Shown piece by piece: positions 12,301-64,000 of a stretch of 64,000 bases of DNA; position 1 is the stretch's first letter; each line of letters opens with the position of its first letter. The notes beneath the pieces are model-generated. The model was not told the origin of the DNA. It searched no databases and saw only the letters and a list, made by a program, of their open reading frames with translations. The translations under genes and the position numbers were made by a program. The stretch covers positions 1-64,000 of the forward strand of contig VXNP01000035.1 of assembly GCA_009840525.1 (NCBI GenBank), read 5' to 3'. Source of the DNA: Gammaproteobacteria bacterium. Its GTDB lineage: Bacteria > Gemmatimonadota > Gemmatimonadetes > Longimicrobiales > Gaopeijiaceae.

Positions 12301-13704
12301 ATGAGAGGACGTGACAATCGGGGGCGTTGGATGGCCCTGTTCCTCGTGGCGCTGGCCGCGGCTGCCCAGGTTCAGCCGCTCGACGCTCAGAGCACCAAGA
12401 TGGGCAGCACGCTGCGCTACGGTTCCGGATTCTTCAACGTTCCGGCCGCTTCCACCCTCCCGCATCTCGCGGTCACGGGCACCTATTCCGGGTTCGGGAT
12501 CAGCGTGGACGAGCGCGTGTTCATCTCCCGGAGAGGGATCGAAAAGGGTCGTCTCTCGGGCGAATGGAGCCAGTGGCTGCAGGACGCGTCGGTTGCCGTG
12601 GGCCTCTTCGACCGCGTCGAAGTCGGCGCCTCCTTCCAGAATTTCGCCGATGCCGAGAACGGCGGGAACATGATCGGCGCATTCGGGCGCATAGCGCTGG
12701 TGAAACCCGAGTCGTCGGGGTTCGGGCTGGCGGTGGGCTCGCGCTTCGTGAGCGGACCTTCGTTCGGAGATGGGCGCGATCACATTCCTCCCCGCCTTGG
12801 ATTCCCCGACATCCGGTTCTACGACGCCTACGAGGGAGGCCTGGTCGACGACATGGCGACCTCGTTCTCGCCCTACGTGATGGGGTCCTTCCAGCTCGCC
12901 GGCCTGGACAGCGACGCCCTTCCGGAGCACGACCTGACCTTCGGGCTGGGGTACGGAACGGGGATGTTCGGCGGGAGCGGAAGCGATCTCGGCTGGTACG
13001 GAAGGCGCTATTCGCACGGCTGGCTCGCGGCCACCGCGCTGCACGTCCAGCTCTCCCAGGGGGTTCTCCTGAACCTCATGGGGGAATACGACGGGTGGGA
13101 CTTCAACACCGGGGTGCAACTGGACGTCGGCGGGATCCGGGCCGGCGCCTACGTGCTCGGGGTCCAGCACGTCGAGACCTCGACCATATACCGCAGCTCG
13201 CGCTTCGGGGTGATGGCCTCCCTGGCGCTCTGTCCCAACGGCAGCGGCCTGTTGTGCAGCCCCGAGTTGATGCCGCGTCCGGAGCCGATCCAGCTTCCGG
13301 CTCCGCCGCCGGACACGGTGGTCATCGAGCGCACCACGGAGATCCCGATCGACCTCAGCATGGAGCGGACCCTGTGCCTCGCGACGGGTGAGAACGGCAC
13401 GGTGATGGCCACGCCCGAAGGCGCGGAAGTGATTGCCCTGGATGCGCTGGGCGGCGTCTACGCGGCGGACGCCGAGTGGTTCAACAACGACAGCGAGATC
13501 GAGCACGCGGACTACCCGTACGAGAAGGTGGGCGAACAGATCAGCCCGAACTGCACCACGATCACCAGGGTCGGCGAGTGGCTGGGCATACCGCTCTTCG
13601 CGGAGTCCGCCGCGGCGGGCGAGGACCCGATTCCGATGATCTACGTGCCTGTGACCCCGGGACGGTGGCAGCCTTACGAGTTGCCGGCGCGGGTGCGCGG
13701 CTGA
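12301..13704 (+). CDS. Outer-membrane beta-barrel protein of unknown function
   Basis: The 467-residue protein starts at ATG 12301, preceded by AAGGAG about six bases upstream; a longer frame from 12214 lacks a ribosome site. Residues 1-32 form a signal peptide ending PLDAQ. The next ~300 residues alternate hydrophobic and polar residues with many aromatics and Gly (SGFGISVDERVF, GMFGGSGSDLGWYGRRY), as expected for amphipathic beta strands. A Pro-rich hinge (PEPIQLPAPPPDTV) at about residue 345 leads to a C-terminal soluble domain of about 120 residues. Only the general barrel architecture is recognised. Its 3' end overlaps the convergent gene by 31 bp. Confidence 0.7.
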   Translation: MRGRDNRGRWMALFLVALAAAAQVQPLDAQSTKMGSTLRYGSGFFNVPAASTLPHLAVTGTYSGFGISVDERVFISRRGIEKGRLSGEWSQWLQDASVAVGLFDRVEVGASFQNFADAENGGNMIGAFGRIALVKPESSGFGLAVGSRFVSGPSFGDGRDHIPPRLGFPDIRFYDAYEGGLVDDMATSFSPYVMGSFQLAGLDSDALPEHDLTFGLGYGTGMFGGSGSDLGWYGRRYSHGWLAATALHVQLSQGVLLNLMGEYDGWDFNTGVQLDVGGIRAGAYVLGVQHVETSTIYRSSRFGVMASLALCPNGSGLLCSPELMPRPEPIQLPAPPPDTVVIERTTEIPIDLSMERTLCLATGENGTVMATPEGAEVIALDALGGVYAADAEWFNNDSEIEHADYPYEKVGEQISPNCTTITRVGEWLGIPLFAESAAAGEDPIPMIYVPVTPGRWQPYELPARVRG

Positions 13705-14318
13705 GGGCTCGCGGGAGCGTTCGCCCGTTCCAGGTCTTCGACGGTGTCGATGTCCGGCAAGGGCTCGAGAGTGGCCGTGCGCAGCTCCAGGGCGCGGGCC
13801 CGATCGAGCGTCGCCGTCATGACTCCCTCCGTGCTCCAGGGCACGTCGCGGAAGAGTTCGGGCCAGCAGGCGGTCGTGCCGATCAGGTAGTATCCACCGT
13901 CCAGCGCGGGACCCAGCACGAGGTCGTTCGCCGAGAGTTCGCCGAAGGCGCGCTCGACGACGCGACGATCCACCGCGGGAGCGTCGGTGCCGATCGCGCA
14001 CACCTGCCGCGCCCGCTGGAACTCGCGCCGGAAGGCCTCGGCCAGACGCTCGCCCAGGTCATCGCCTTCCTGAGGTCTGAAACCGACGTCCGCAGCTCCC
14101 AGCCACTCACGCGCCGCGGCCAGTTCATTCGCGGGATCGATGTAGACGACCAGGCGATAGCGCCCGCCGCGAACGCCATCCAGCACCCGGCGTCCCATGA
14201 TGCCGTACAGCGATGCCGCCTCGACATCCCCGATGGCGGCGGCCAGTCGCGTCTTGACGCGCCCCGGACGGGGCACTTTCGCGAAGACGATCAGAGTGCG
14301 CTCCACGTCGCGGGTCAT
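13674..14318 (-). CDS. TIGR04282-type nucleotidyl/glycosyltransferase (arsenosugar-associated family)
   Basis: The 214-residue product has the CofC/GT-A-like fold signature of the TIGR04282 family: IVFAKVPRPGRVKTRLA at the N-terminus, GTDAPAVDRR in the middle (acidic metal-binding motif) and LGPALDGGYYLIG. These small transferases occur next to TIGR04283 glycosyltransferases, as here. The 'arsenosugar' label comes from some cyanobacterial clusters and need not apply. The start ATG (14316-14318 on the plus strand) overlaps the upstream gene's stop by four bases. It is last in a three-gene minus-strand operon. Confidence 0.88.
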   Translation of the reverse strand: MTRDVERTLIVFAKVPRPGRVKTRLAAAIGDVEAASLYGIMGRRVLDGVRGGRYRLVVYIDPANELAAAREWLGAADVGFRPQEGDDLGERLAEAFRREFQRARQVCAIGTDAPAVDRRVVERAFGELSANDLVLGPALDGGYYLIGTTACWPELFRDVPWSTEGVMTATLDRARALELRTATLEPLPDIDTVEDLERANAPASPQPRTRAGNS

Positions 14319-15034
14319 CGGTTGCGCCCGTTCTCCGATGCCGGGACGCGCTCGGGATACCAACGCGCCAGGCGTTCGGGCGCGACGCCGGCCAGATACA
14401 GGGATGCGGCCGCCCCGTTGCGCAGCCAGACCTTCCATCTTCCGAGGCGCTGGTAGGTTCTGGGGCTGGTCAGCAGAGGCCCGCGCAGGCGCGCGATTCT
14501 GCCCGAGCGACGCAGTCGGCGAACCATTTCGACATCTTCCATGAGCGGCAGTTCGGGGTAGCCGCCAACTGCTTCGAAGGCCTCGCGCCGTACCAGCAGG
14601 CCCTGATCGCCGTACACCAGGCCGGTCAGGCGCTCGCGCACGCGCTGTCCGGTCTCGACCAGGCGCCAGAACCAGCCAGGCCCGCTCAGACGGAACGGGA
14701 AATACGCCGCCGCCGGGCCGTTGTCGGACTGGAGCGCGGAGACGAGCGCCGAGCGGGAGGCCGACGGGAGCCGGGAGTCGGCGTGCAGGAAGAGGAGCCA
14801 GGGTGTTTCGAGCGCGCGCGCGCCCGCGTTCATCTGGGCGGCCCGCCCCCGGGGCCCGGACACGCACACGGCGCCTCCGGCGCGCGCCAGCTCGAGGGTG
14901 TCGTCGGCCGAACCGCCGTCCGAAACGACGACACGAAGCGGCAGTTGAACTTCCGCCAGGTCGGCCAGCAGTCGGGGCAGATGACCCGCTTCGTCGATCG
15001 TCGGGATCACCACCCCCAGGGTGGCGCCGGTCAC
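14315..15034 (-). CDS. TIGR04283-family GT2 glycosyltransferase
   Basis: The 239-residue GT-A enzyme begins GVVIPTIDEAGHLPRLLADL, with VVSDGGSADDT (nucleotide-sugar binding) and FLHADSRLP, where the family's DxD-like acid is represented. VYGDQGLLVRREAFEAVGGY and ELPLMEDVEM follow, typical acceptor and catalytic regions of TIGR04283. It is cytosolic or peripheral, with no membrane helix. It overlaps the genes on both sides by four bases, so the DUF547-TIGR04283-TIGR04282 trio is clearly one operon. The substrate is unknown. Confidence 0.9.
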   Translation of the reverse strand: MTGATLGVVIPTIDEAGHLPRLLADLAEVQLPLRVVVSDGGSADDTLELARAGGAVCVSGPRGRAAQMNAGARALETPWLLFLHADSRLPSASRSALVSALQSDNGPAAAYFPFRLSGPGWFWRLVETGQRVRERLTGLVYGDQGLLVRREAFEAVGGYPELPLMEDVEMVRRLRRSGRIARLRGPLLTSPRTYQRLGRWKVWLRNGAAASLYLAGVAPERLARWYPERVPASENGRNR

Positions 15035-54938: not shown

Positions 54939-55298
54939 ATGTTGAATCGCTTCTGGCCCGGTGCGGCGGTGGTGTGCCTCGTGCCTGCGGCCTGCACTTC
55001 GGACGCCGCAGAGGTAGTGGCGCCAATTGCCGAGACCGCGCCCTACGCCGCGGCGCAGGCTCGGAGTGCGGTGGCCGATACGCTGACGGACCGTGAAATC
55101 CTCGAAGTCTTCTATCACGCCACCGGAGGTCCGGACTGGGACTACCAGGGCGGCTGGATGTCCGAACCGTCGATCGAGGACTGGGAAGGCGTCGGCGTGG
55201 ATACGGCCGGCCGGGTGCAAGCCTTGTGGCTGCCGTACAACAACCTGTCCGGGTCGATTCCGGCGGAACCACGAGAGATTTTGCAAACTAATACATAA
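54939..55298 (+). pseudogene. LRR lipoprotein gene, truncated after its first leucine-rich unit
   Basis: The start is strong: AAGGAGG at 54925-54931, seven bases before ATG 54939. The protein has a lipoprotein signal with Cys19 (VPAAC). The N-terminal cap of bacterial LRR surface proteins follows (EVFYHATGGPDWDYQGGWM near residue 57), then the start of a plant-like LRR (LWLPYNNLSGSIPAE). Homology stops exactly after Glu110 (codon 55266-55268). The last nine residues derive from the inserted element, and the reading ends at 55298. Complete family members carry many more repeats. A three-repeat fragment of the same type lies inverted at 63581-63796. Confidence 0.85.
55258..55268. repeat. Left flank site of the integrated element (11-bp palindrome-like)
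   Basis: TTCCGGCGGAA ends exactly where LRR homology ends, at the codon for the Glu of an Ile-Pro-x-Glu turn. The same 11-mer occurs at 63581-63591 on the other side of the element. The sequence is TTCCG-N-CGGAA, so it reads the same on both strands apart from the centre. Confidence 0.75.
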
Positions 55299-55299
55299 C

Positions 55300-55368
55300 A
55301 AAGTTTTATAGAACATCGGGTTAGCGATGTACCACTCACGATATGCAGAAATGCACTGGAATACATGA
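55300..55368 (+). repeat. Left-end attachment-type sequences of the element
   Basis: AAAGTTTTATA (55300-55310) resembles AAAGTGTTATG at 63522-63532 in the same orientation. Next, 55327-55368 (starting ATGTACCACT, ending AATACATGA) weakly resembles the integrase-proximal block at 63417-63457 (GTGTATCACT ... AATACAC). Together they look like diverged core and arm sites at the left end. The local AT-richness contrasts with both flanks. Confidence 0.5.
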
Positions 55369-55438
55369 GACCGCATCGGAAGTCAGCGGACGCTCGTTTC
55401 GGGACGCTACGACAGGGTCGATAGGTCCAAACGGGCTG

Positions 55439-56773
55439 TCACCGCACCTCGACGGGCAGCCTCCTCACGACCACGCTGGCCACGTCGAACTCATCGAATT
55501 CGATGAAAGCTGCCAATCCATCGGGACCGAAGGCGTCCGGCATCGCGGTCGCGTCGGTGGAGTAGGTGCCGACGTACTCGCCATCGGCGGTCACGACATC
55601 GATCGGTCCGTCACTCTCCGGGTGTTCACCGCGGCGCTGCACCCAAATGCGGCCATTCCATGAAGTGGCAAGGCTGCGGAGCACGGGCACCTCGGGGAAG
55701 TACCTCTCCTCGATTTGGAAGGATGCCCGCGTCGGACGACCGGGATTGGGATTGGCGCCCGTCCCACCTTCGCGCACGGCCATCATTCGCGTGCCTAACA
55801 CCTGCCCCATGTCCGCGTCCCGGCGGGCGGCCGCCCGTCTTTCCTCGTACTCCCTCTCGACGTCGGGTGTCACGGGTTCGGGACGGAAGGGCCGCCGGAT
55901 GATTCTTGCAACGTCCCTTGCGTCCGGCGGGGTGATCTTGAGCGTATAGGTTGAGGAATCGGAGTGAACGATCCCCCCATCCGGCAGCACCCCCACCAGC
56001 ATCTCGGGCTCGAACACCGTGGGCATGGTCATGCTTCCGAGCATTTGCCGGACTTGAGCGGGCACATCGTTGGGTGCGAGATCAGTCATGTCGCCCCGCT
56101 CGGGCAACCATCCGCGAGCCACGGTGTCCGCCTGCATGGTCTCGCCGCCGAGTCCGACGCGCATGACCGGACGGGACGTGGGCGGAGCCGCCGGAGCGTC
56201 ACCCAATCCCGAGATGGTGACGCCCGGCCCCCCGAAGGCCCCCGCGAAGACGGCTACGCCGCGCGGATCGGGCAGAATCTCGCCCAAGACCGACATTCCG
56301 TTGAGGTCGTCGCCGATGCGGACCATGCGGATCAATCCACCGGAGTCATCGAGGAGTTGGAACGCACGGTGGCCGATGTCGCTCACCACCACGGTTCCGT
56401 CCGGCAACACCGCGAAACCGTTTGGCCGGTTGAACTCCCCCGGACCTCCGCCCGAGGAGCCGAACTCGCGCAAGAAGCCTCCGTCGGCGTCGAACACCAA
56501 GACCCGCAGACTGCCGCCCCCGAGCAACCCGGAGGTCCCGTCGAAGACGTACAGGTTGCCGTCGGCGTCGAAAGCCACCTCCGAAACCTCGGCGAACATC
56601 TCCCAGGACTCGCCTTCGAGGACACCGACACGGAAGACCTCCTCGAAACCGGGTTCGATAGACCGGTCCCGGCCTGTGACCTCGACGATCTCTTGAGCGA
56701 GGAGAGTGGAGGGGACCGCCAAGACGGCCATCAGAAGGGACGAGTGGATCGAGATGGACCTGCTGGCGTGCAT
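55439..56773 (-). CDS. Secreted 6-bladed beta-propeller protein
   Basis: The 444-residue product has a signal peptide ending STLLAQ (residue ~27). It then has repeated propeller blades, each with an '[11 protein letters not shown]' or '[10 protein letters not shown]' strand and an [18 protein letters not shown] phrase near residue 110, which define the NHL/6-bladed propeller group common in this phylum. A charged segment ([14 protein letters not shown]) interrupts the C-terminal blades. As cargo of the element it is an accessory surface or periplasmic protein of unknown ligand. It has normal GC content, unlike the propeller near 5600. Confidence 0.8.
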
Positions 56774-57036
56774 CGTGATTCTCTCTGGTTAGTCGAATGT
56801 GGGAGTTGGGACGGACCAACTCACGATACCACCGATTGGACGCTCTGTCGCGGCAGTGAGGTTGCCCCCCACAATGTGCCCGGATCGTCCCGGCCGTCCA
56901 GCGTGCCGGGGGTCCGACCACGCAGCATTGCGGAGACTGCCGCTCTACATGGGACGGTGCGACGCGCTAGATTCGGGTATGATACCGATCCACGGAGGGC
57001 GACTTCATTTGCGAGACAGACGAGCAGTGAGCGCCG

Positions 57037-57774
57037 ATGGCGATTGATCTTGCAGACCACGAGAGAAAAGCACGCGACGCGGTCAAGACGTTCTGGAGGA
57101 GCCGTGAGCGGGCTCGGCGGAAGCAAGCGGACACGCGCCTGCCGGACCAAGGGGAACGGGCAAGCGTGACGGCGGGCAAGAACATGGATGGGTTCATCGA
57201 ACTCGTTGTGGATCTCGTGAGGGCCAACGGTCTTCAGAATGCCTCGATTCACTTGGAACGCGCCCTTCTGACCCTTCCCGGCTTCTTCCGGCCCACCAAG
57301 CTGTGGGATCTGATTGTGCTCAACGAAGGTCGTCTGGTGGCGGCCATCGAACTGAAGAGTCACGTCGGGCCGTCGTTCGGAAACAACTTCAATAACCGGG
57401 CGGAAGAGGCCATCGGGAGCGCGTGCGACTTGTGGACGGCCTACAGGGAGGGGGCGTTCGGCGACCACCCACGACCGTTCGTGGGTTGGCTGATCCTCGT
57501 CGAGGACGCACCGGGCTCCCGGAGCGCGGTGCGAATCCGGTCGCCTCATTTCCCGGCGTTCCCCGACTTCGAGGGTGCCTCGTACCTGAAGCGGTACGAC
57601 TTGCTTTGCCGACGGCTGGTCAAGGAGCAACTCTACACGACAGCGGCGGTGATCTCGTCTCCCAGATCGGCCGCCGAGACGGGAGAGCACGGAAGCCTCT
57701 CGGTGATGTCGGGGCTGAAGACCTTCGTGACCTCTCTGGCGGGTCACGTAGCCGCCGAGGCGGCCCGGACCTGA
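57037..57774 (+). CDS. Type II restriction endonuclease, PaeR7I/XhoI family
   Basis: The 245-residue protein follows the XhoI/PaeR7I pattern closely: [37 protein letters not shown], then the PD-(D/E)xK nuclease core with Asp in KLWDL and Glu-Leu-Lys in [26 protein letters not shown], and [13 protein letters not shown]. Members cut CTCGAG, so that specificity is predicted. ATG 57037 starts it. It converges on the methyltransferase gene, with only 10 bases between the stops. No control-protein gene is seen. Confidence 0.9.
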
Positions 57775-57784
57775 AGCGCGAAAG

Positions 57785-58816
57785 CTACTGCGCTACAGGC
57801 CGCCCGCTGTTGGAATCGAGAGCCCCGATCCGCACGTCCACCGTGCGCAGCAGGCTGGCAGCCTCGCCCAGCATTCGTTGGACCGCCTTGCCGTGGTACA
57901 CCGGGTCGACTTCGATTCCGATGCTGTTGCGGCCGGTGGCGGCGGCTGCGACTTGAGTCGAGGCCGTTCCGGTAAAGGGGTCGAGCACGGTGTCGCCAAC
58001 GAAGCTGAACATCCGAATCAGGCGATCCGCGAGTACGACCGGATAGGGCGCGGGGTGATCGCGTGTCGACGCTCCCGGGATGTCGCTCCAAATCTGGCGG
58101 AAGTGAGTCTTGAAGCTGGCCTCTGGCAGCAGGGAGAGCGTCCGCGCGGCTTGGGTCGGCTTTCGGTAGCCGCCCGGCTTTCTCTGCATCAGGATGAACT
58201 CGATGTCGTTTTTGATGACGGCGTTGGGCTCGTAGGGCTTGCCCAGGAATCCGGCGGAGCCTCTCTGCACTTCATGGGCGACGTTGGCGATCTTGTGCCA
58301 GATGATCGGTGCCAGATTGTCGAATCCGATCCTTCGGCAGCGGTCCTGAATCGAGGCGTGGAGGGGAACCACGGCGTGTCGACCGTTTCGCCGTCGCGAT
58401 AGACATACATCTCCCACCACGCAGATCAGCCGTCCGCCGGGGACGAGTGCCCGATGGGACATGCGCCAGACGGCGTCCAACTCGTCGAGAAACTCCTCGT
58501 AGTCGGCAATCCAGCCCAACTGCCCCGAGGTTCGACGATACTCCTTGAGCGTCCAGTACGGTGGAGACGTGAGGACGAGGTGAACCGACTCGGCGGGCAG
58601 GACCGCGCGGCGCGCGTCCCCCAACAAAACCTGATGGTGTGACGGCACCTGCTCGACAGCGGCGGCGATTAACGCCATGCTCGGCGGATCCTTCGCGAGG
58701 CGCGGCAGATCGCGGGCGGGGTCGTCCAGATCCCGAAGGGGTTCGGGAACCAAGTCGTCGAGCGGTGGCGTGACGCTCATTTGCTTCTTGGACGCGGAAA
58801 CGGCGTTCATCTTCAC
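57785..58816 (-). CDS. DNA methyltransferase, beta-class (N4-cytosine or N6-adenine)
   Basis: The 343-residue enzyme has the catalytic motif LVLTSPPYW near residue 85 (motif IV) ahead of the cofactor motif VLDPFTGTASTQVAA near residue 285 (motif I), i.e. the beta order. SPPYW is more often found in N4-cytosine enzymes. It pairs tail-to-tail with the XhoI-type nuclease and must protect its site. Classical M.PaeR7I, as I recall, is a larger gamma-class N6-adenine enzyme, so the pairing is unusual. The first ~45 residues are a variable extension. Confidence 0.9.
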   Translation of the reverse strand: MKMNAVSASKKQMSVTPPLDDLVPEPLRDLDDPARDLPRLAKDPPSMALIAAAVEQVPSHHQVLLGDARRAVLPAESVHLVLTSPPYWTLKEYRRTSGQLGWIADYEEFLDELDAVWRMSHRALVPGGRLICVVGDVCLSRRRNGRHAVVPLHASIQDRCRRIGFDNLAPIIWHKIANVAHEVQRGSAGFLGKPYEPNAVIKNDIEFILMQRKPGGYRKPTQAARTLSLLPEASFKTHFRQIWSDIPGASTRDHPAPYPVVLADRLIRMFSFVGDTVLDPFTGTASTQVAAAATGRNSIGIEVDPVYHGKAVQRMLGEAASLLRTVDVRIGALDSNSGRPVAQ

Positions 58817-58978
58817 CCCTGAAGACTAATCTGGACGGATGCGGCCTGTCGATGCCACCGAGTTACGCGGGAAGCCAGCGGCCCGCCCGAGCACGGACTT
58901 GACGGACCGCCCACGAGTGAACGTAAGTTATTGCCATGCAAGGACAAGACTTGGGTACACACGGAACGAAGAGAGAGG

Positions 58979-59293
58979 ATGACTAAAGCGGACCTCGTTG
59001 AGGAGGTTGCCGAGACGGTCGGACCCCGGCTCACCAAGAAGGACTGCAAGCGAGTGATCGAGGCGTTTCTCGCCTCGGTGCAGGACACGCTTGTGGGGGG
59101 CGAGGGCATCGAGATCCGGGGATTCGGCACGTTCAAGGTGCGAAACCGCAAGGCGCGCACGGCTCGCAACCCACGAACGGGGGAAGCGGTCGAGGTTCCA
59201 CCCCGCAGCGCCCCGGTCTTCCAGCCGTCGAGCCTTTTTGTTGGCCGGATGAACCGCCCGCACGGATCCCCGGAGGAAGCCGGAGGCTCCTAG
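58979..59293 (+). CDS. HU/IHF-family DNA-bending protein
   Basis: The 104-residue product starts MTKADLVEEVAETVGPRLT at ATG 58979 after AGAGAGG. It has the HU core IEAFLASVQDTL, then GIEIRGFGTFKVRNRKARTARNPRTGEAVEVPP, which is the beta-arm with the conserved Arg-Asn-Pro tip. A short C-terminal extension follows. Carried on a mobile element, it could assist the integrase as IHF does for phage lambda, or silence cargo. It is the only plus-strand gene between the methyltransferase and integrase genes. Confidence 0.92.
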   Translation: MTKADLVEEVAETVGPRLTKKDCKRVIEAFLASVQDTLVGGEGIEIRGFGTFKVRNRKARTARNPRTGEAVEVPPRSAPVFQPSSLFVGRMNRPHGSPEEAGGS

Positions 59294-59309
59294 CGCGAGC
59301 CGCGAACGA

Positions 59310-60833
59310 TCAGCGGCTTGGTCCAGAGTCCCGGTCCGGCCCCGGCCGCCGTATCCTTTCCAGCAGTTGCCTCGTCATCTCCACCTGCTCCCTGGCCCTG
59401 CGCCGTACGTCCCGGAGTAACCGGTCAAGTCCGTCACCCGCGCGTTCAGCCGCTCGACTTGCCGCTGCAAGGCTTCGACCTGTTCTCGCAACGCTCCGAT
59501 CTGTCCGGAGTGCCGCCGCTGTTCCGTTTCGTACTGCCCGGACAACCTTTCCAATGCGGCCGTCAGCCGCCGCTCCATATCGGTCACGCAGCTCCCTCCT
59601 CACTCTCTCGACAGCTTCAAGTAGGGCCGCCCTTTCATGGTGAAGGCCGGACGGACCGCCGTCCCGGCGGGCAGCGACACGTACCGGTCCCCGCTGCTCT
59701 CCAGCAACTCGACGCCCCACGTCGTCTCCTCGATCTCGGCCAGCGTCGCGCGCGCCCACCCGGTCCGCGTGTCCAGCTCGTCCAAGGTCTCGATCCGGTC
59801 CTGGATGCTCCTCGACAGCCAGTGCATCGTCCCCAAGCTTCCGAAGCAGATACCCAGGAAGAGGCTCATGCCTACCACGAAAGGCCGGAGCCAGGCCTTC
59901 ATCAGCAACTCGCGCATCTTCCCGGTCGCCTCGACCGTATCGGCCTCGATGGTACGCAGCGCGCCGCTTGCGACGGCGCTCAAGTTCTCGCCGAGCCGCG
60001 CGAGCTCGCGCGCGGCTTCGTCCTCGATCCGCCTCCGGTCGGCCTCCAGCCTGCTCCTCAGCCGGGAGGTCAAGTCGCCCGGGCTCGAAGTCTCGTTCAT
60101 ACAGTTCTCCTCTCAGCCGCCACCGCTTTCCGCTGTCCGGATCGCGCGCGGTGACGTAGTCCTTGCCTTGGCGGGTCACGTCGAGACCAACGTCCTCCAG
60201 TGCGGAGACCACGTCGGCTCGGTCCTTGACCGCGCCGTGCTCGACGCGCTGCACGAGGTAGTCGCGGATCAGCGTGCGCGGGTCGGCCTCGTGCTCCAGC
60301 CCGGCCCGCAGCCTTGACGCCTCGATGTAGGCCACGTGGCCCGGACGCTGCGCCCTGGCGCGCCTCGGGTCGTCCGGTCGGCTCCAGCCGTGTTCGTGGT
60401 TGAAGGCGTCGCGCAGCGGGGCGAAGGTCTTCTCCCAGCCGGGGGGCGCGATGTTCAAGCTGCGGCCGGTCTGTAGGTCGCACTGCGCGGCCAAAATGTG
60501 GACGTGGACGCCGCCTCCACGCTCGCGGTGCAGGACTGCGGTCCACGCGTAGCGGTCGGGCTCCAGTCCCGCCCACGCCGTCTTCTCGAACTCGTCGAGG
60601 ACGGCTTCGATCTGTTCGCCGGTGGGCTGGTCCTCCGGCGCCCACGCGATCACGGCGGACGTGTACTTCCTCTCGAAGTCGAGCGAGTCGGCCACGGCGG
60701 CCACCATGTCCGGGTTCCCGCGCCACACTTCGACGCCCTCGCGCTCCCGTCCCTCGGCGTCCAACTCGCCGACGAGGTACTTGGCCGCCGCCTTGGCCGA
60801 GCCCTTCCCGTGGGACAGGAACCTAACGAGCAT
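59310..60833 (-). CDS. mobA: Relaxase (MobA/MbeA-like, MOBP5 type)
   Basis: The relaxase nicks oriT and pilots DNA during mobilization. From MLVRFLSHGKGSAKAAAKYLVG the N-terminus follows ColE1 MbeA (MIVKF...GKGGGSGPVDYLLG), with Tyr19 as probable catalytic residue. LRGNP- and KYTSAVIAWAPE-like segments follow, then the metal motif VHVHIL at His110/His112 and LQTGRSLNIAPPGWEKTF. The last ~220 residues are Arg/Gly/Ala-rich and carry two other genes in another frame. The start MLVRF at 60833 overlaps the mobC stop; an in-frame start at 60863 adds ten residues. The 507-residue length matches MbeA-class proteins. Confidence 0.88.
   Translation of the reverse strand: MLVRFLSHGKGSAKAAAKYLVGELDAEGREREGVEVWRGNPDMVAAVADSLDFERKYTSAVIAWAPEDQPTGEQIEAVLDEFEKTAWAGLEPDRYAWTAVLHRERGGGVHVHILAAQCDLQTGRSLNIAPPGWEKTFAPLRDAFNHEHGWSRPDDPRRARAQRPGHVAYIEASRLRAGLEHEADPRTLIRDYLVQRVEHGAVKDRADVVSALEDVGLDVTRQGKDYVTARDPDSGKRWRLRGELYERDFEPGRLDLPAEEQAGGRPEADRGRSRARARAARRELERRRKRRAAYHRGRYGRGDREDARVADEGLAPAFRGRHEPLPGYLLRKLGDDALAVEEHPGPDRDLGRAGHADRVGARDAGRDRGDDVGRRVAGEQRGPVRVAARRDGGPSGLHHERAALLEAVERVRRELRDRYGAAADGRIGKVVRAVRNGTAAALRTDRSVARTGRSLAAASRAAERAGDGLDRLLRDVRRRAREQVEMTRQLLERIRRPGPDRDSGPSR
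59375..59587 (-). CDS. MobD/MbeD-like coiled-coil protein nested in the relaxase gene
   Basis: A 70-residue frame (MTDMERRLTAALERLSGQY...) lies wholly inside the relaxase 3' region in another frame. It encodes a regular heptad coiled coil (IGALREQVEALQRQVERLN). ColE1 mbeD is likewise a short coiled-coil gene nested inside mbeA. A CCTCCC-type ribosome site (GGAGGGAG on the minus strand) sits just before the ATG. The position 12 bases after the mobB-like gene strengthens the call. Confidence 0.7.
   Translation of the reverse strand: MTDMERRLTAALERLSGQYETEQRRHSGQIGALREQVEALQRQVERLNARVTDLTGYSGTYGAGPGSRWR
59600..60100 (-). CDS. mobB: MobB/MbeB-like membrane protein nested in the relaxase gene
   Basis: The 166-residue frame is fully contained in the relaxase gene in a different frame. 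It begins MNETSSPGDLTSRLRSRLEAD and has an N-terminal helical region, a single membrane helix (RPFVVGMSLFLGICFGSLG near residue 90) and the MobB-like end TTWGVELLESSGDRYVSLPAG followed by GRPYLKLSRE. Real amphipathic and membrane features in this frame, against Arg/Gly-rich sequence in the relaxase frame, show that both are coding. The layout copies ColE1 mbeB. AGGAGAACTGT precedes the ATG. Confidence 0.85.
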   Translation of the reverse strand: MNETSSPGDLTSRLRSRLEADRRRIEDEAARELARLGENLSAVASGALRTIEADTVEATGKMRELLMKAWLRPFVVGMSLFLGICFGSLGTMHWLSRSIQDRIETLDELDTRTGWARATLAEIEETTWGVELLESSGDRYVSLPAGTAVRPAFTMKGRPYLKLSRE

Positions 60834-61164
60834 CGTCGGTCTCCCCGCCGATGCGGGCGACACGGAGCAGCGAGCGCTCGAAGGACACGATGTGGGCGAT
60901 CACGGAGACGGCCTCGGCCGCCGTCCTGTGGGTGTTCGCCCAGCGAACAAGCTGGTTCAGGTTGTTCCCGATGCGCGCGATCTGGCGCGTGCGCTCGCGC
61001 TCGACGGACCGCGCCGCCGCGGTCCACGTATGCGTCCGCGCCATCGCCTCGCGAAGCAGCGCGGAGGGGGACACGCCCGCTGCGGCCGCCTTCTCTCGCC
61101 ACGCAGCGTGCTCCGCGGGCGTGACGCGCGCGGCGACCATCACGGTGCGATTGCCGTCAGCCAC
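60823..61164 (-). CDS. mobC: MobC/MbeC-like relaxosome protein
   Basis: The 113-residue product has an RHH-like N-terminus (RTVMVAARVTPAEHAAWREKAAAAGVSPSALLREA). The diagnostic MobC motif is ARIGNNLNQLVRWANTH near residue 65. MobC opens oriT for the relaxase. The stop overlaps the relaxase start. Candidate oriT hairpins lie 80-140 bases upstream, the same order as in ColE1-type plasmids. Confidence 0.92.
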   Translation of the reverse strand: MADGNRTVMVAARVTPAEHAAWREKAAAAGVSPSALLREAMARTHTWTAAARSVERERTRQIARIGNNLNQLVRWANTHRTAAEAVSVIAHIVSFERSLLRVARIGGETDDAR

Positions 61165-61244
61165 AAGCGCACCCGCGACGGGTTTCGGGGGCCTCGCCCC
61201 CGCGCGTCCGCCGCTCCGTCGGCGGCGCGACAGTCCGGGGGTCT

Positions 61245-61301
61245 AAGGGGGCCGGAACGCCCCCTTGCCAGCCCGCCGTGTTCAACACGGCGTGTGCTGG
61301 C
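61245..61301. other. oriT: Candidate oriT: two adjacent hairpins upstream of mobC
   Basis: Hairpin 1 pairs AAGGGGGC (61245-61252) with GCCCCCTT (61259-61266), loop CGGAAC. Hairpin 2, immediately next, pairs GCCAGC (61267-61272) and CGCCGTGTT (61274-61282) with AACACGGCG (61284-61292) and GCTGGC (61296-61301). Strong inverted repeats just upstream of mobC are where ColE1/MOBP oriT sites lie. No nic consensus could be assigned. A terminator for the alpA transcript is the alternative. Confidence 0.55.
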
Positions 61302-61359
61302 TGCCCGACCAAAGACGCGCCCGACAAGCTGTTTCCCGGCCGCCGCGAAGCGCGCCGAA

Positions 61360-61668
61360 TCACCTTACCTGGCGGACCCCAGCCGCCCGCCAACCGGCCT
61401 CCGGGATCCCGTGCGCGGCCTCGCCGCGCTCACGGGTCTCAACGCCGTCGAACCGGCTCTCGGCGATCCGCTCGGCGACCCACTCCTCGATCTCGGCCTC
61501 GATCCAGCCCACGGCGCGCCCGCCCAGGGCGACCGGCCGGGGGAAGCGCCCCGCGGCCAACCGGACATAGATCGTGCTCCGCGACAGGCCCGTGCGCGCC
61601 ATCACCTCGGGCAGCCGCAGGAAGCGGGTCGGAGGGTTCGTTCTCTCGTTCCTCGGATTCTCGGCCAT
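61360..61668 (-). CDS. AlpA/excisionase-like helix-turn-helix protein
   Basis: The 102-residue protein has a MerR/AlpA-type HTH: RFLRLPEVMARTGLSRSTIYVRL near residues 15-37, FPRPVALGGRAVGWIEAEIEEWV, then a variable tail. AlpA-type proteins regulate P4-type integrases or act as excisionases. It lies between mobC and the small HTH-like gene, on the same strand as the integrase. Confidence 0.85.
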   Translation of the reverse strand: MAENPRNERTNPPTRFLRLPEVMARTGLSRSTIYVRLAAGRFPRPVALGGRAVGWIEAEIEEWVAERIAESRFDGVETRERGEAAHGIPEAGWRAAGVRQVR

Positions 61669-61716
61669 CGTCCTGCTCCTTCTCGCTGTGCTCTGTTTGC
61701 TGGTCGGTCGTCGGTG

Positions 61717-61944
61717 TCACGGCCTTCTCGGGGGATCGCGCCCACCGCCCGATGCCCCGTCGTGCTCCGCGATGAACGCGAGAATCCGGTCCGCCGTCCT
61801 GAGCGACGGCGAGCGGCCACGGCCGATCTCGCGCATGAGGTTCGGGTCGCCCAGCGCCTTCATGCCGAGTGCCGTCGGGCTCACCCCCGAGTCCCCGAGA
61901 AACGCGCTCACCCGCGAAATGAACTGTCCTTCCAGCGTCTCCAT
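61717..61944 (-). CDS. Small HTH-like protein
   Basis: A 75-residue product starting METLEGQFISRVSAFLGDSG; a start 12 codons earlier is possible. The central SPTALGMKALGDPNLMREIGRGRSPSLRT recalls small XRE-like proteins that read 'LG..A.GDP.LV..I..GR.P...T'. It is probably a DNA-binding regulator of the element. It is 48 bases upstream of the AlpA-type gene and shares its direction. I am not certain of the family. Confidence 0.6.
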   Translation of the reverse strand: METLEGQFISRVSAFLGDSGVSPTALGMKALGDPNLMREIGRGRSPSLRTADRILAFIAEHDGASGGGRDPPRRP

Positions 61945-62004
61945 GCCCGAACGCTGAACGAAAATCCATGAGCTCGTCAACCCCTTGAGAATCAGCTAAG
62001 TGGC

Positions 62005-62028
62005 TATGACGTATCATGTTGTGTCATA
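62005..62028. promoter_or_regulatory. Inverted repeat between the small HTH-like gene and the integrase stop
   Basis: TATGAC (62005-62010) and GTCATA (62023-62028) flank a 12-base spacer, with a further TGTCA copy just right. It lies ~60 bases upstream of the small HTH-like gene, as an operator would. The rest of 61945-62242 (about 300 bases) holds no gene I can support. Confidence 0.45.
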
Positions 62029-62242
62029 ACGTGTCAGAGCCTCGGAAGAGCTCCGCCAGCGGCGCGGCGGGACGCCCCCTTGGCGAACCGCATGGTGATC
62101 GTCCAGAGGCGTGGAATCCGGCCCAGCGAGACCCGGTTCGACTGGTTTGCCGTCGTGGGTGGCGGCAATGCGGTTTGCCCGCCGAACCGCGCTGCGGAGA
62201 GGCGGAATGGTTGTGTCGGCGGGTGGCGAGGGTGGCGAGTAG

Positions 62243-63400
62243 CTACCCGATGTAGTCGTTCCACCCCTGCATGACTTCGGCCCGTCGCGCCAGCAGGTCG
62301 GAGCGCTGGTAGGCCTGAACGACTTGGCTTTTCGGAACATGGGCGAGGCAAGCCTCCGCGACCTCCGCCGGGATGCCCGACTCGGCCATCCACGACCGGG
62401 CGCTCGACCGGAACCCGTGCAGCGTCGAGTCCACCCCGGCACGCCGAAGCACCCGGAGTGGAGCCTTCGACGGAAGCGGCCCGCCGGTCCGCGACGGGAA
62501 CACCAGCGACGACTTGCCCGACAGCTTGCGAGCCCGTCCGAGCACGTCGAGCGCGCCCGTGTTCAGCGGGACGGCAAACTCGCGGCCCGCCTTCATCCTC
62601 GAAGCGGGGATCGTCCACACGCCCGCGTCCATGTCGATCTCGTCCCAGCGCGCCCCGCGCGCCTCTCCAGGCCGAACCGCCGTCAGCACGATCAACTCGA
62701 CGCACGGAACCGCCGAAGGGTGCGTGTCGCTGGTCCCGCGAACCGCGCGGAGCGCGGCCCCGACCTCGCTGTGCGGGAGCGCGCGATGATGGCTCGTGGT
62801 GTTCCCGTTCACCTTGGGAAGCGCTTCGACGGCCCGGTCGACCGGGTTGTCCGGGCGGTAGTTCCGACCGATACACCAGCGAAACACGGCGGCGATCCGG
62901 TGCCGGGCCTTCCGCGCCGCGGCGGGCTTCGAGTTCCAGATCGGCGACAAGCAGCGCAGCACGTCCGCGCTCTCGATCCGGTCCACCCGCTTGTCGAGGA
63001 GCGGGGCGGCATGGAGGCGGAAGGTGGACTCCCACTGCTCGGGAAGCGGGCTCCCCTCCTTCCACGCCTCGCGGTGAAGCTCGATCGTCCGCTCGGCGGC
63101 CTCGGCGAAGGTCGGGACGCCGCGTCCGCGCGGGTCCTGGCCCAACAGGACGCCCCGGCTGTTGTCCAGCGCCTTCTGGCGGGCCTCGGCAAGCGTCACC
63201 TCGGGATATGGCCCGAGTCCGATCGAGGTGAGCCGCCCCTCGATCCTGACGCGCTGCCGCCACGTCTTGGTGATCCGGCCGTCCAGTGTCCGGTGTACGC
63301 GAAGGCTCAGCCCGCGTCCGCCGCGTCCGTCGCCGTAGACTCCGGGTCGGCTGACCGTTCGCACGAAGGCGGCGCTCAGCGTCCTCGGTCGCTTCGTCAT
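62243..63400 (-). CDS. int: Tyrosine integrase (P4-like)
   Basis: The 385-residue recombinase has an N-terminal arm-binding DUF4102-like domain (GRGLSLRVHRTLDG, SIGLGPYPEVTLAEARQKA). A SAM-like core-binding domain follows (residues ~105-200), then the catalytic domain with Arg in TAVRPGEARGARWDEID, His-x-x-Arg in LHGFRSSARSW, a His in CLAHVPKS and the nucleophile Tyr in VVQAYQRSD near the C-terminus. It starts MTKRPRTL after AAGGATGG. Its upstream region repeats, inverted, in front of the second integrase at 63987. Confidence 0.94.
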   Translation of the reverse strand: MTKRPRTLSAAFVRTVSRPGVYGDGRGGRGLSLRVHRTLDGRITKTWRQRVRIEGRLTSIGLGPYPEVTLAEARQKALDNSRGVLLGQDPRGRGVPTFAEAAERTIELHREAWKEGSPLPEQWESTFRLHAAPLLDKRVDRIESADVLRCLSPIWNSKPAAARKARHRIAAVFRWCIGRNYRPDNPVDRAVEALPKVNGNTTSHHRALPHSEVGAALRAVRGTSDTHPSAVPCVELIVLTAVRPGEARGARWDEIDMDAGVWTIPASRMKAGREFAVPLNTGALDVLGRARKLSGKSSLVFPSRTGGPLPSKAPLRVLRRAGVDSTLHGFRSSARSWMAESGIPAEVAEACLAHVPKSQVVQAYQRSDLLARRAEVMQGWNDYIG

Positions 63401-63415
63401 GGTGTTCCATCCTTA

Positions 63416-63442
63416 TGGTGTATCACTTATTGCAGCACTACA
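63416..63442 (+). repeat. 27-base inverted repeat, copy next to integrase 1
   Basis: 27 bases starting TGGTGTATCACTTATTGC are identical, in reverse orientation, to 63946-63972. Weaker identity extends to about 63480. It lies 16-42 bases upstream of the integrase 1 start. GTGTATCAC and GAATACAC half-repeats inside it look like integrase arm sites. Confidence 0.85.
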
Positions 63443-63580
63443 TCTGGAAGAATACACGGGATGGCGATGGACGGCAAGAGACGGTAAAGCGCCGTGGATA
63501 CCGCAGAACACGTTGTCCAGTAAAGTGTTATGACCTACCCATTAGACCTTGTCGGACTACACGGGAAGATGCGTGGCGAG

Positions 63581-63591
63581 TTCCGGCGGAA
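63581..63591. repeat. Right flank site of the element (11-bp palindrome-like)
   Basis: TTCCGGCGGAA, identical to the copy at 55258-55268 and in direct orientation. On the minus strand it encodes the Ile-Pro-Pro-Glu turn that ends the third LRR unit, so here too LRR homology stops at the site. Confidence 0.75.
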
Positions 63592-63796
63592 TCGGACCCG
63601 TCAGGTTGTTGGCGCTGAGCCACAGCCGGTCGAGTTTCTCGAGGTTTCCCAACTCGCGCGGGATCGGTCCCGTCAGGGCGTTGGCTTCGACCCGCAGTCC
63701 CTCGAGGTTGGAGAGAAGACCCAGCTCGGACGGGATCGGGCCCGACAGGTCGTTGTGTTGCAGCGCCAGATCACGGAGCCGCGAGAGGCCGCCCAG
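63581..63796 (-). pseudogene. Displaced module of three leucine-rich repeats
   Basis: On the minus strand, 216 bases encode exactly three 24-residue LRR units (LGGLSRLRDLALQHNDLSG..., SELGLLSNLEGLRVEANALTG, RELGNLEKLDRLWLSANNLTG). They are bounded at both ends by a Glu codon of an IP/VP-x-E turn. The open frame continues to a stop at 63557 and back to 63988, but the outer parts come from element ends. There is no signal peptide or own ribosome site. It matches, in frame and phase, the missing continuation of the truncated LRR lipoprotein at 54939. Confidence 0.85.
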
Positions 63797-63809
63797 TTCG
63801 GGGGGAACT
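63795..63809. repeat. Left flank site of the second element
   Basis: AGTTCGGGGGGAACT is an imperfectly centred palindrome marking the other end of the LRR module. It is the counterpart of the TTCCGGCGGAA sites. Sequences just outside the two ends of the module share GGAACTCG and then a diverged ACG-ATC block. Confidence 0.6.
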
Positions 63810-63861
63810 CGATACGTATCGTCCGAAGCGATCCGATGCCGTATCGTATGGTGTCCATAAG

Positions 63862-63878
63862 ACGTTGTTAGACAACGT
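63862..63878. repeat. Inverted repeat ACGTTGT-TAG-ACAACGT near the second element's end
   Basis: A perfect 7-3-7 palindrome. The equivalent place near integrase 1 (63510-63532) reads ACGTTGTCCAGTAAAGTGTTATG, so half is conserved. It is a candidate recombinase core site. Confidence 0.5.
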
Positions 63879-63945
63879 ATTGTAGGTAACTCCCGAACCC
63901 TCATCGTCCCTTGAAGTCCATCGCAATCCGGTGTATTCTTCTCGG

Positions 63946-63972
63946 TGTAGTGCTGCAATAAGTGATACACCA
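63946..63972 (-). repeat. 27-base inverted repeat, copy next to integrase 2
   Basis: Exact reverse complement of 63416-63442. It lies 15-41 bases upstream of the second integrase start. Weaker matching extends outward to about 63905, including a shared GTCCATCGC block. Confidence 0.85.
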
Positions 63973-63986
63973 CAAGGAGAAAACCC

Positions 63987-64000
63987 ATGATGAAGCGGCC
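63987..64000 (+). CDS. Start of a second tyrosine integrase, cut by the window end
   Basis: AAGGAG (63974-63979) is followed by ATG 63987 and codons for M-M-K-R-P, closely matching M-T-K-R-P at the start of integrase 1. Together with ~90 bases of shared upstream sequence this indicates a homologous integrase facing right. Only the first codons are visible, so the identity is inferred. Confidence 0.6.

Follow-up and report, generated by a model that had tools for sequence, protein, structure and literature searches.

Leucine-rich repeat codons as the probable attachment site of a group of integrative mobilizable elements in Gemmatimonadota

Results

Leucine-rich repeat codons at the integrase junctions

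The window analysed here, 64,000 nucleotides of contig VXNP01000035.1 (C106) from the assembly GCA_009840525.1 of a Gaopeijiaceae bacterium, carries near its end a leucine-rich repeat (LRR) gene that is interrupted by an 8.3-kb element with a tyrosine integrase, here called element a. Comparison of the integrase copies and their flanks indicates that this element very probably belongs to a group of integrative mobilizable elements (IMEs) with a tyrosine integrase whose chromosomal attachment site is the stretch of DNA that encodes the conserved LRR turn (Ile/Val-Pro-x-Glu-Leu, TTCCGSCSGAACT). A scan of contigs for relatives of the integrase gave 77 distinct loci from the best 80 of 93 candidates, and a set of 73 close copies was formed from all 62 loci at at least 70% identity, five copies from the window's own genome and six partners on the same contigs. 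LRR coding DNA is joined exactly between the Glu and the Leu of the Ile/Val-Pro-x-Glu-Leu turn of a 24-residue repeat in 66 of these 73 copies, 181-190 bp from the integrase start, and the tetranucleotide GAAC stands 181-190 bp upstream of the integrase start in 71 of them. Because the codon-exact junction recurs in 66/73 related integrases, the pattern is not a matter of chance. The LRR reads toward the integrase ('+') in 32 and away from it ('-') in 34 of the 66, and the 66 flanks fall into 64 different sequences at 90% identity.

In distant relatives, this association was not seen. The window's own genome (155 contigs) holds eight strong integrase matches (E 2e-86 or better); the five closest (81-100% identity) each adjoin LRR coding DNA, and the three at 48-55% identity have no LRR motif in the 1.5 kb upstream. 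Likewise, none of 15 distant loci (at most 53% identity) has an LRR motif within 1.5 kb upstream. L131, with 32 bp upstream, was dropped, leaving 14 loci, among which L116 has 360 bp upstream and some others match part of the protein. LRR DNA is thus found in 0/17 distant relatives with readable upstream DNA (14 loci and three own copies), and a Fisher test of 66/73 against 0/17 gives p 4e-13 with shared ancestry ignored. Close integrases (E up to 1e-150) occur in 23/121 genomes of the family; in a sample of 395 genomes of the phylum, 30 have them, all from two families within one class. Between these families, the identity of the element DNA reaches 94.8% over 2 kb, as expected of mobile DNA. 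Among viral contigs, 46 pattern matches included no relative of the integrase. The host bacteria are presumably marine and live in sponges and corals.

The interrupted gene and the inverted module

The features of the window that carry the argument are as follows.

54,939-55,268, plus strand: 5' part of an LRR lipoprotein-like gene (signal-like N-terminus, N-cap and first LRR), cut at Glu110; 87-88% identity to intact orthologs of 631-634 aa in G008, G009 and G010
55,257-55,269, plus strand: attachment core ATTCCGGCGGAAC at the junction of the LRR and the distal end of element a
55,270-63,579: element a, 8.3-kb predicted integrative mobilizable element, homologous to elements in other genomes
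62,243-63,400, minus strand: tyrosine integrase a (PF00589, PF22022 and PF13356; Arm-DNA-binding, middle and catalytic domains)
63,410-63,579, minus strand: integrase-proximal end of element a; its part 63,410-63,532 is the inverted homolog of 63,856-63,978 (123-nt inverted repeat, 76%)
63,580-63,592, minus strand: attachment core GTTCCGGCGGAAT at the junction of element a and the module
63,581-63,796, minus strand: stranded module of three LRRs, in the opposite orientation to the interrupted gene and unlike the repeats that this gene lacks
63,796-63,808, plus strand: attachment core GTTCGGGGGGAAC at the junction of the module and element b
63,987-64,000, plus strand: first part of tyrosine integrase b, whose aa sequence is 89% identical to that of integrase a and which continues to position 65,087 of C106, a contig ending at 65,088

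The LRR match of the window gene, which was labelled a lipoprotein by eye, ends at the GAA codon of Glu110 (55,266-55,268). This break is real, since the intact orthologs of three same-genus genomes read on through that position as SIPPE-LGSLTKL; they lie at the same position, behind a LuxR-type gene (LuxR-type by eye), and are 634 aa (G008), 634 aa (G009) and 631 aa (G010) long. The 3' half of the gene is found outside the window on contig C22 of the same genome, where it begins at a repeat boundary and abuts another integrase of the same family. The DNA downstream of this half matches the downstream DNA of the orthologs at 93-94% identity, and the gene's end at 88%. Both the intact orthologs without an element and the 3' half placed against another integrase support the LRR turn as the target. 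In G001, an element belonging to another subtype interrupts a more distant ortholog, and does so in a different repeat.

When aligned to the G008 and G010 orthologs, the two halves together are short by exactly three repeats (residues 111-182). These repeats are kept in all five intact orthologs read, namely those of G008, G009 and G010 and the more distant ones of G012 and G014, which were taken without a synteny check; the G029 ortholog lies outside this set. Elsewhere in the own genome, the three native repeats have their best long match among paralogous C22 repeats (74% over 142 nt), and pieces of 37-41 nt match at 85-92%. The native repeats were probably lost from this genome, the DNA between the ends of C106 and C22 being unassembled. 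Both contigs break off within integrase genes (C106 at 65,088, C22 at 31,631), and the unassembled array between the two gene halves may contain more elements or the three missing repeats.

The module between integrases a and b is 216 nt long, equal to three 24-residue LRR units, and both its edges are Glu codons of the same turn. The two integrases diverge from it, a on the minus and b on the plus strand, and the DNA flanking it forms the 123-nt inverted repeat listed above; the integrase genes a, b and the C22 copy share 84-93% DNA identity. The initial annotation had described the Glu110 break, the 216-nt minus-strand module and its two Glu edges, and these coordinates, frames and lengths proved correct. 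It is also true, as it held, that joining GAA (55,268) to CTG (63,796, minus strand), the first codon of the module, is in frame and in LRR phase, and that integrase elements cut LRR genes at repeat boundaries and leave whole-repeat modules between them, the examined joins being in frame. The exact frame and phase that it had noticed arise most likely because LRR codons are the attachment site. A restoration of this gene by inverting 55,269-63,796 is not supported: the gene continues natively on C22, and the module differs strongly from the repeats that are missing. The identity of the module to these repeats is 61% at the nucleotide level, whereas the N-terminal part of the gene matches G010 at 92%, and between G008 and G010 the three repeats match at 96%; on these sequence comparisons, the module is therefore best taken as derived from another LRR gene. 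Matches to the module at 1e-15 occur in 15/121 family genomes, one being its own copy and the other 14 reaching 69-73% identity, so no donor was found in this search, in which the best six first-look candidates per genome were scored.

Two further LRR genes of the own genome, on C29 (L199) and C73 (L200), are cut by distal element ends and read PPELRGNL and PPELRTIS up to a stop. The number of LRR genes hit in this genome is three to five (C106/C22, C29, C73, C129 and C59), because the 3' parts on C129 and C59 could belong to the C29 or C73 genes.

Core sequence, site choice and orientation

In the LRR reading, the core is TTCCGSCSGAA or a close variant, and the best matches show almost complete dyad symmetry. 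Over their full length, the G008 and G010 ortholog genes match the core consensus at 11/11 in one place only, repeat 1, which is where element a sits in the window. Matches of 10/11 lie at three places in G008 and two in G010, and one of the G008 places corresponds to the repeat boundary where the C22 half starts. At the window junction (IPAE), the central base of the core differs from that in 5/5 intact orthologs read (IPPE) and equals that of the C22 junction core; this single base faintly suggests a strand exchange to its left, and the more distant G001 ortholog has the same base natively.

Orientation mostly tracks element subtype. Mapped by parsimony onto a quick tree of 61 integrases (57 labelled), orientation changes ten times, compared with a mean of 19 after shuffling; if only well-supported branches are counted, five changes are enough. 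The clade of 12 integrases that includes the window element nevertheless holds both orientations (5 '+' and 7 '-').

Elements with repeat DNA on both sides and stranded modules

At eight loci the element is flanked by LRR DNA on either side, and joining the flanks gives an in-frame, in-phase LRR repeat in seven of them (L061, L062, L073, L075, L083, L085 and L111); in L111, the upstream LRR part already carries a frameshift. Far-side LRR DNA was found in eight of the 11 LRR-adjacent loci with at least 4.5 kb beyond the integrase. In L085, the distal end of a second element lies two repeats further on, which makes a tail-to-tail arrangement.

LRR DNA that has neither a start nor a stop lies between head-to-head integrase pairs in the window and at L062, L063, L064, L070, L081 and L089, and an eighth such module was found in G180. 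Measured from core to core, the modules hold 3 (window), 7 (L062), 2 (L063), 1 (L064), 3 (L070) and 2 (L089) LRR units, the L081 module is 1140 bp with linkers, and all seven first-listed modules are in frame. Several insertions into the same repeat gene would be expected to leave stranded modules; the window locus goes beyond this, as its module is inverted and unlike the missing repeats. Six of the seven modules were long enough for comparison, and none of these six was found elsewhere among the loci compared; a motif scan of the 36.9-kb contig of L062 in G012 found no 5' LRR part past the second element. In the cases read, the 5' product of the interrupted gene is truncated, with a stop shortly past the repeat (ELATHLPV, ELRGNL and similar). 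A conserved fusion frame from the element end into the 3' LRR part was considered and rejected, as it is open in the window and L081 and blocked upstream in L062, L063 and L070. Extra matches to the integrase-proximal end were seen on the opposite strand in L112 near 10,550 and L122 near 1200, possibly solo ends or further pairs.

Gene content of element a

Besides integrase a, element a carries the following genes.

55,439-56,773, minus strand: cargo, 6-bladed beta-propeller/NHL protein (Pfam PF17170, PF01436)
57,037-57,774, plus strand: cargo, XhoI-type restriction endonuclease (PF04555, E=4e-94)
57,785-58,816, minus strand: cargo, N6/N4 DNA methyltransferase (PF01555)
58,931-59,293, plus strand: HU-type DNA-binding protein (PF00216)
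59,310-60,863, minus strand: relaxase (PF03432; MbeA-like below the curated cut-off)
60,823-61,164, minus strand: NikA/MobC mobilization protein (PF21983, PF05713)
61,360-61,668, minus strand: AlpA-type regulator (PF05930)

AlpA-type regulators are common on such islands. The endonuclease and methyltransferase (57,037-58,816) are apparently a restriction-modification cargo. Pfam and PHROG match the integrase to general phage integrases. Mating-apparatus families were absent from the Pfam scan of eight element open reading frames (ORFs), two more ORFs had no PHROG hit, and the remaining small ORFs lay outside the scan. Judged from these predicted genes, the make-up of 55,270-63,579 is that of an integrative mobilizable element.

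Discussion

We propose that LRR codons would serve as attB for these elements and that integration would proceed by integrase-mediated recombination at the core. LRR genes contain the codon block several times, at a fixed position of the 24-codon unit; any insertion would thus fall between repeats and two insertions would be spaced by whole repeats, in frame. Since the core is near-palindromic, integration would be possible in either orientation, and both orientations are indeed found among closely related elements. Repeated insertion into a single LRR gene would strand LRR modules between elements, and later recombination between core sites could delete, invert or move whole repeats with the frame kept, so that modules may be lost, inverted or exchanged. 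In the window, element a lies in repeat 1, further elements follow, and the dissimilar three-repeat module lies inverted between a and b; the order of these events would be that of successive insertions and later exchange at the core sites. Frame-safety would then require no selection for shuffling, because the site is a fixed codon of a repeat.

Several observations weigh against the LRR turn as the general target of this integrase group. Seven of the 73 close copies were not scored as LRR. Three of these lie outside LRR DNA (L077, L079 and L080), L077 and L080 with a related core in a non-LRR gene; two were not counted because their LRRs look degenerate by eye (L084 and L091), and two are without such an end (L093 and L113). 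Six further copies in the second family comprise three with LRR and three with neither LRR nor core. L115, the eighth two-sided locus, has no clean distal core and no clean rejoining, and far-side LRR was not found in L068 (5.3 kb), L103 (6.1 kb) or L107 (10 kb). Furthermore, the close-family records in the locus list are all titled as metagenome-assembled genomes (MAGs), their contigs often stop within elements, and the list of integrase loci is the best 80 of 93 candidates. As a separate observation, the copies outside LRR genes (L077, L080, L079, G180:C43, G173:C27 and G316:C29) apparently all belong to the Palauibacter family, and L077 and L080 have the related core TTCCGGTAGAAC in common in a non-LRR gene, so that an alternative site or a site switch may exist. 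At L238 (G012:C153:8249-11791 and 12831-14750), two element-hit LRR proteins end in a domain with HELGHNLSLRHAPCG and HELGHNMSLRHAPCG, a zinc metalloprotease-like motif by eye.

Other explanations differ in what they make of the module. The initial annotation had read the locus as LRR module shuffling, and of this the movement of modules remains plausible, while programmed inversion found no support. A programmed system, in which the integrases act on behalf of the host and diversify a surface protein through the movement or flipping of modules, would account for the in-frame joins at core sites, for the eight head-to-head pairs that enclose in-frame LRR modules, for the three dissimilar repeats in place of three native ones at the window and for both orientations among closely related elements. 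However, element a carries mobilization genes and restriction cargo and is not a lone invertase, the testable modules do not recur among the loci compared (0/6), the window module has only the distant matches described above in 14 other family genomes, and the tail-to-tail module of L085 shows that the arrangements are not limited to one design. In the cases read, insertion also truncates the gene with a stop soon after the junction, which, for any single insertion, favours a by-product over a function. We consider such a system improbable. It is rather unlikely, too, that the window rearrangement arose by homologous recombination between element copies or LRR repeats, with the integrase acting in the original insertions only; the 84-93% identity among the integrase genes and the inverted repeat at the ends of a and b would provide the homology, but the module edges are the attachment core, which RecA recombination does not require.

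Chimeric joins of similar elements in C106 and C22, that is, an assembly or binning artefact, are suggested by the MAG-like assembly and by the ends of both contigs within integrase genes. We regard this as very improbable, because integrase a and the C22 copy share exact matches of 63 bp at most, none of at least 31 bp exists between a and b, and identical codon-exact junctions recur in assemblies of other records. That the LRR segments are cargo inherited along with the integrase, and not insertion targets, would fit the LRR DNA beside 66/73 copies; nevertheless, the variety of the flanks (64 different sequences among 66, in both orientations), the intact element-free orthologs and the rejoining of two-sided flanks make this scarcely credible.

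Shufflons and other invertible surface-protein genes consist of a tyrosine recombinase with inverted sites flanking coding segments. A tyrosine recombinase and inverted sites around coding segments are also present at the window locus, but no constant gene beside invertible alternatives was seen here, and the units are whole mobile elements and stray repeat modules. An inversion at the locus would not join an expressed constant part to alternative 3' parts of the same gene, the module being dissimilar to the missing repeats and the native 3' half lying on C22. The locus is assembled in a single arrangement, and no inversion was observed. Integrons and their gene cassettes collect modules between recombination sites. 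Modules between recombination sites could in principle be collected here as well, whereas the integrase of these elements has an Arm-DNA-bind_3 domain and the modules are repeat fragments.

The features of IMEs that could be examined are present: a site-specific integrase of their own, a relaxase with NikA/MobC, and direct-repeat cores at both ends whose joining restores the target in 7/8 two-sided elements (L115 not being clean). According to the portions of PMC5704250 cited here, tyrosine-integrase IMEs mostly use tRNA genes or the ends of housekeeping genes, which stay undisrupted, and mostly occur in one copy per genome. The elements described here resemble these IMEs in the integrase, relaxase and mobilization protein, in the lack of conjugation genes among the tested ORFs and in the direct-repeat att cores, and differ from them in that the site lies within a coding repeat of which there are many copies, that insertion cuts the target gene, and that one genome holds five close integrases. 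Some IMEs enter conserved sites of other elements, namely the oriT nic site or traG (PMC5704250), and in both cases a recurring conserved sequence leads to multi-copy insertion; here, however, the target is a structural repeat in LRR-protein genes, with more than one position per gene. The LRR codon target thus departs from the IME targets in the cited portions of PMC5704250. Among the top hits listed by searches of an open-access library, we found no report of LRR genes or codons as an integrase attachment site, subscription journals and preprints being outside the scope of the search. The abstract of the Palauibacterales paper names marine samples, and in the main text of PMC10469786 the words leucine-rich, LRR and integrase were all not found; in PMC4755523, mentions of LRR are confined to the reference list.

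The integrase, with its short near-palindromic site, is directly testable. We tentatively suggest, as a possibility that we hold doubtful, that pairs of elements in one LRR gene act like a composite element, which excises with the trapped repeats and delivers them in frame to other LRR genes. If this were true, it would be a horizontally moving, frame-safe way of shuffling the repeats of LRR proteins in which every junction is at the same codon, and the window would be a snapshot of it, with three native repeats gone and three foreign ones arrived. Instead of a unique gene end, these elements would target DNA that encodes a protein repeat, of which a gene holds several copies and a genome several such genes. 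Such a target would offer many landing sites, and rearrangements would stay in frame and in repeat register, opening a route to changes in repeat number and to the exchange of modules in LRR proteins that may mediate contact with the host.

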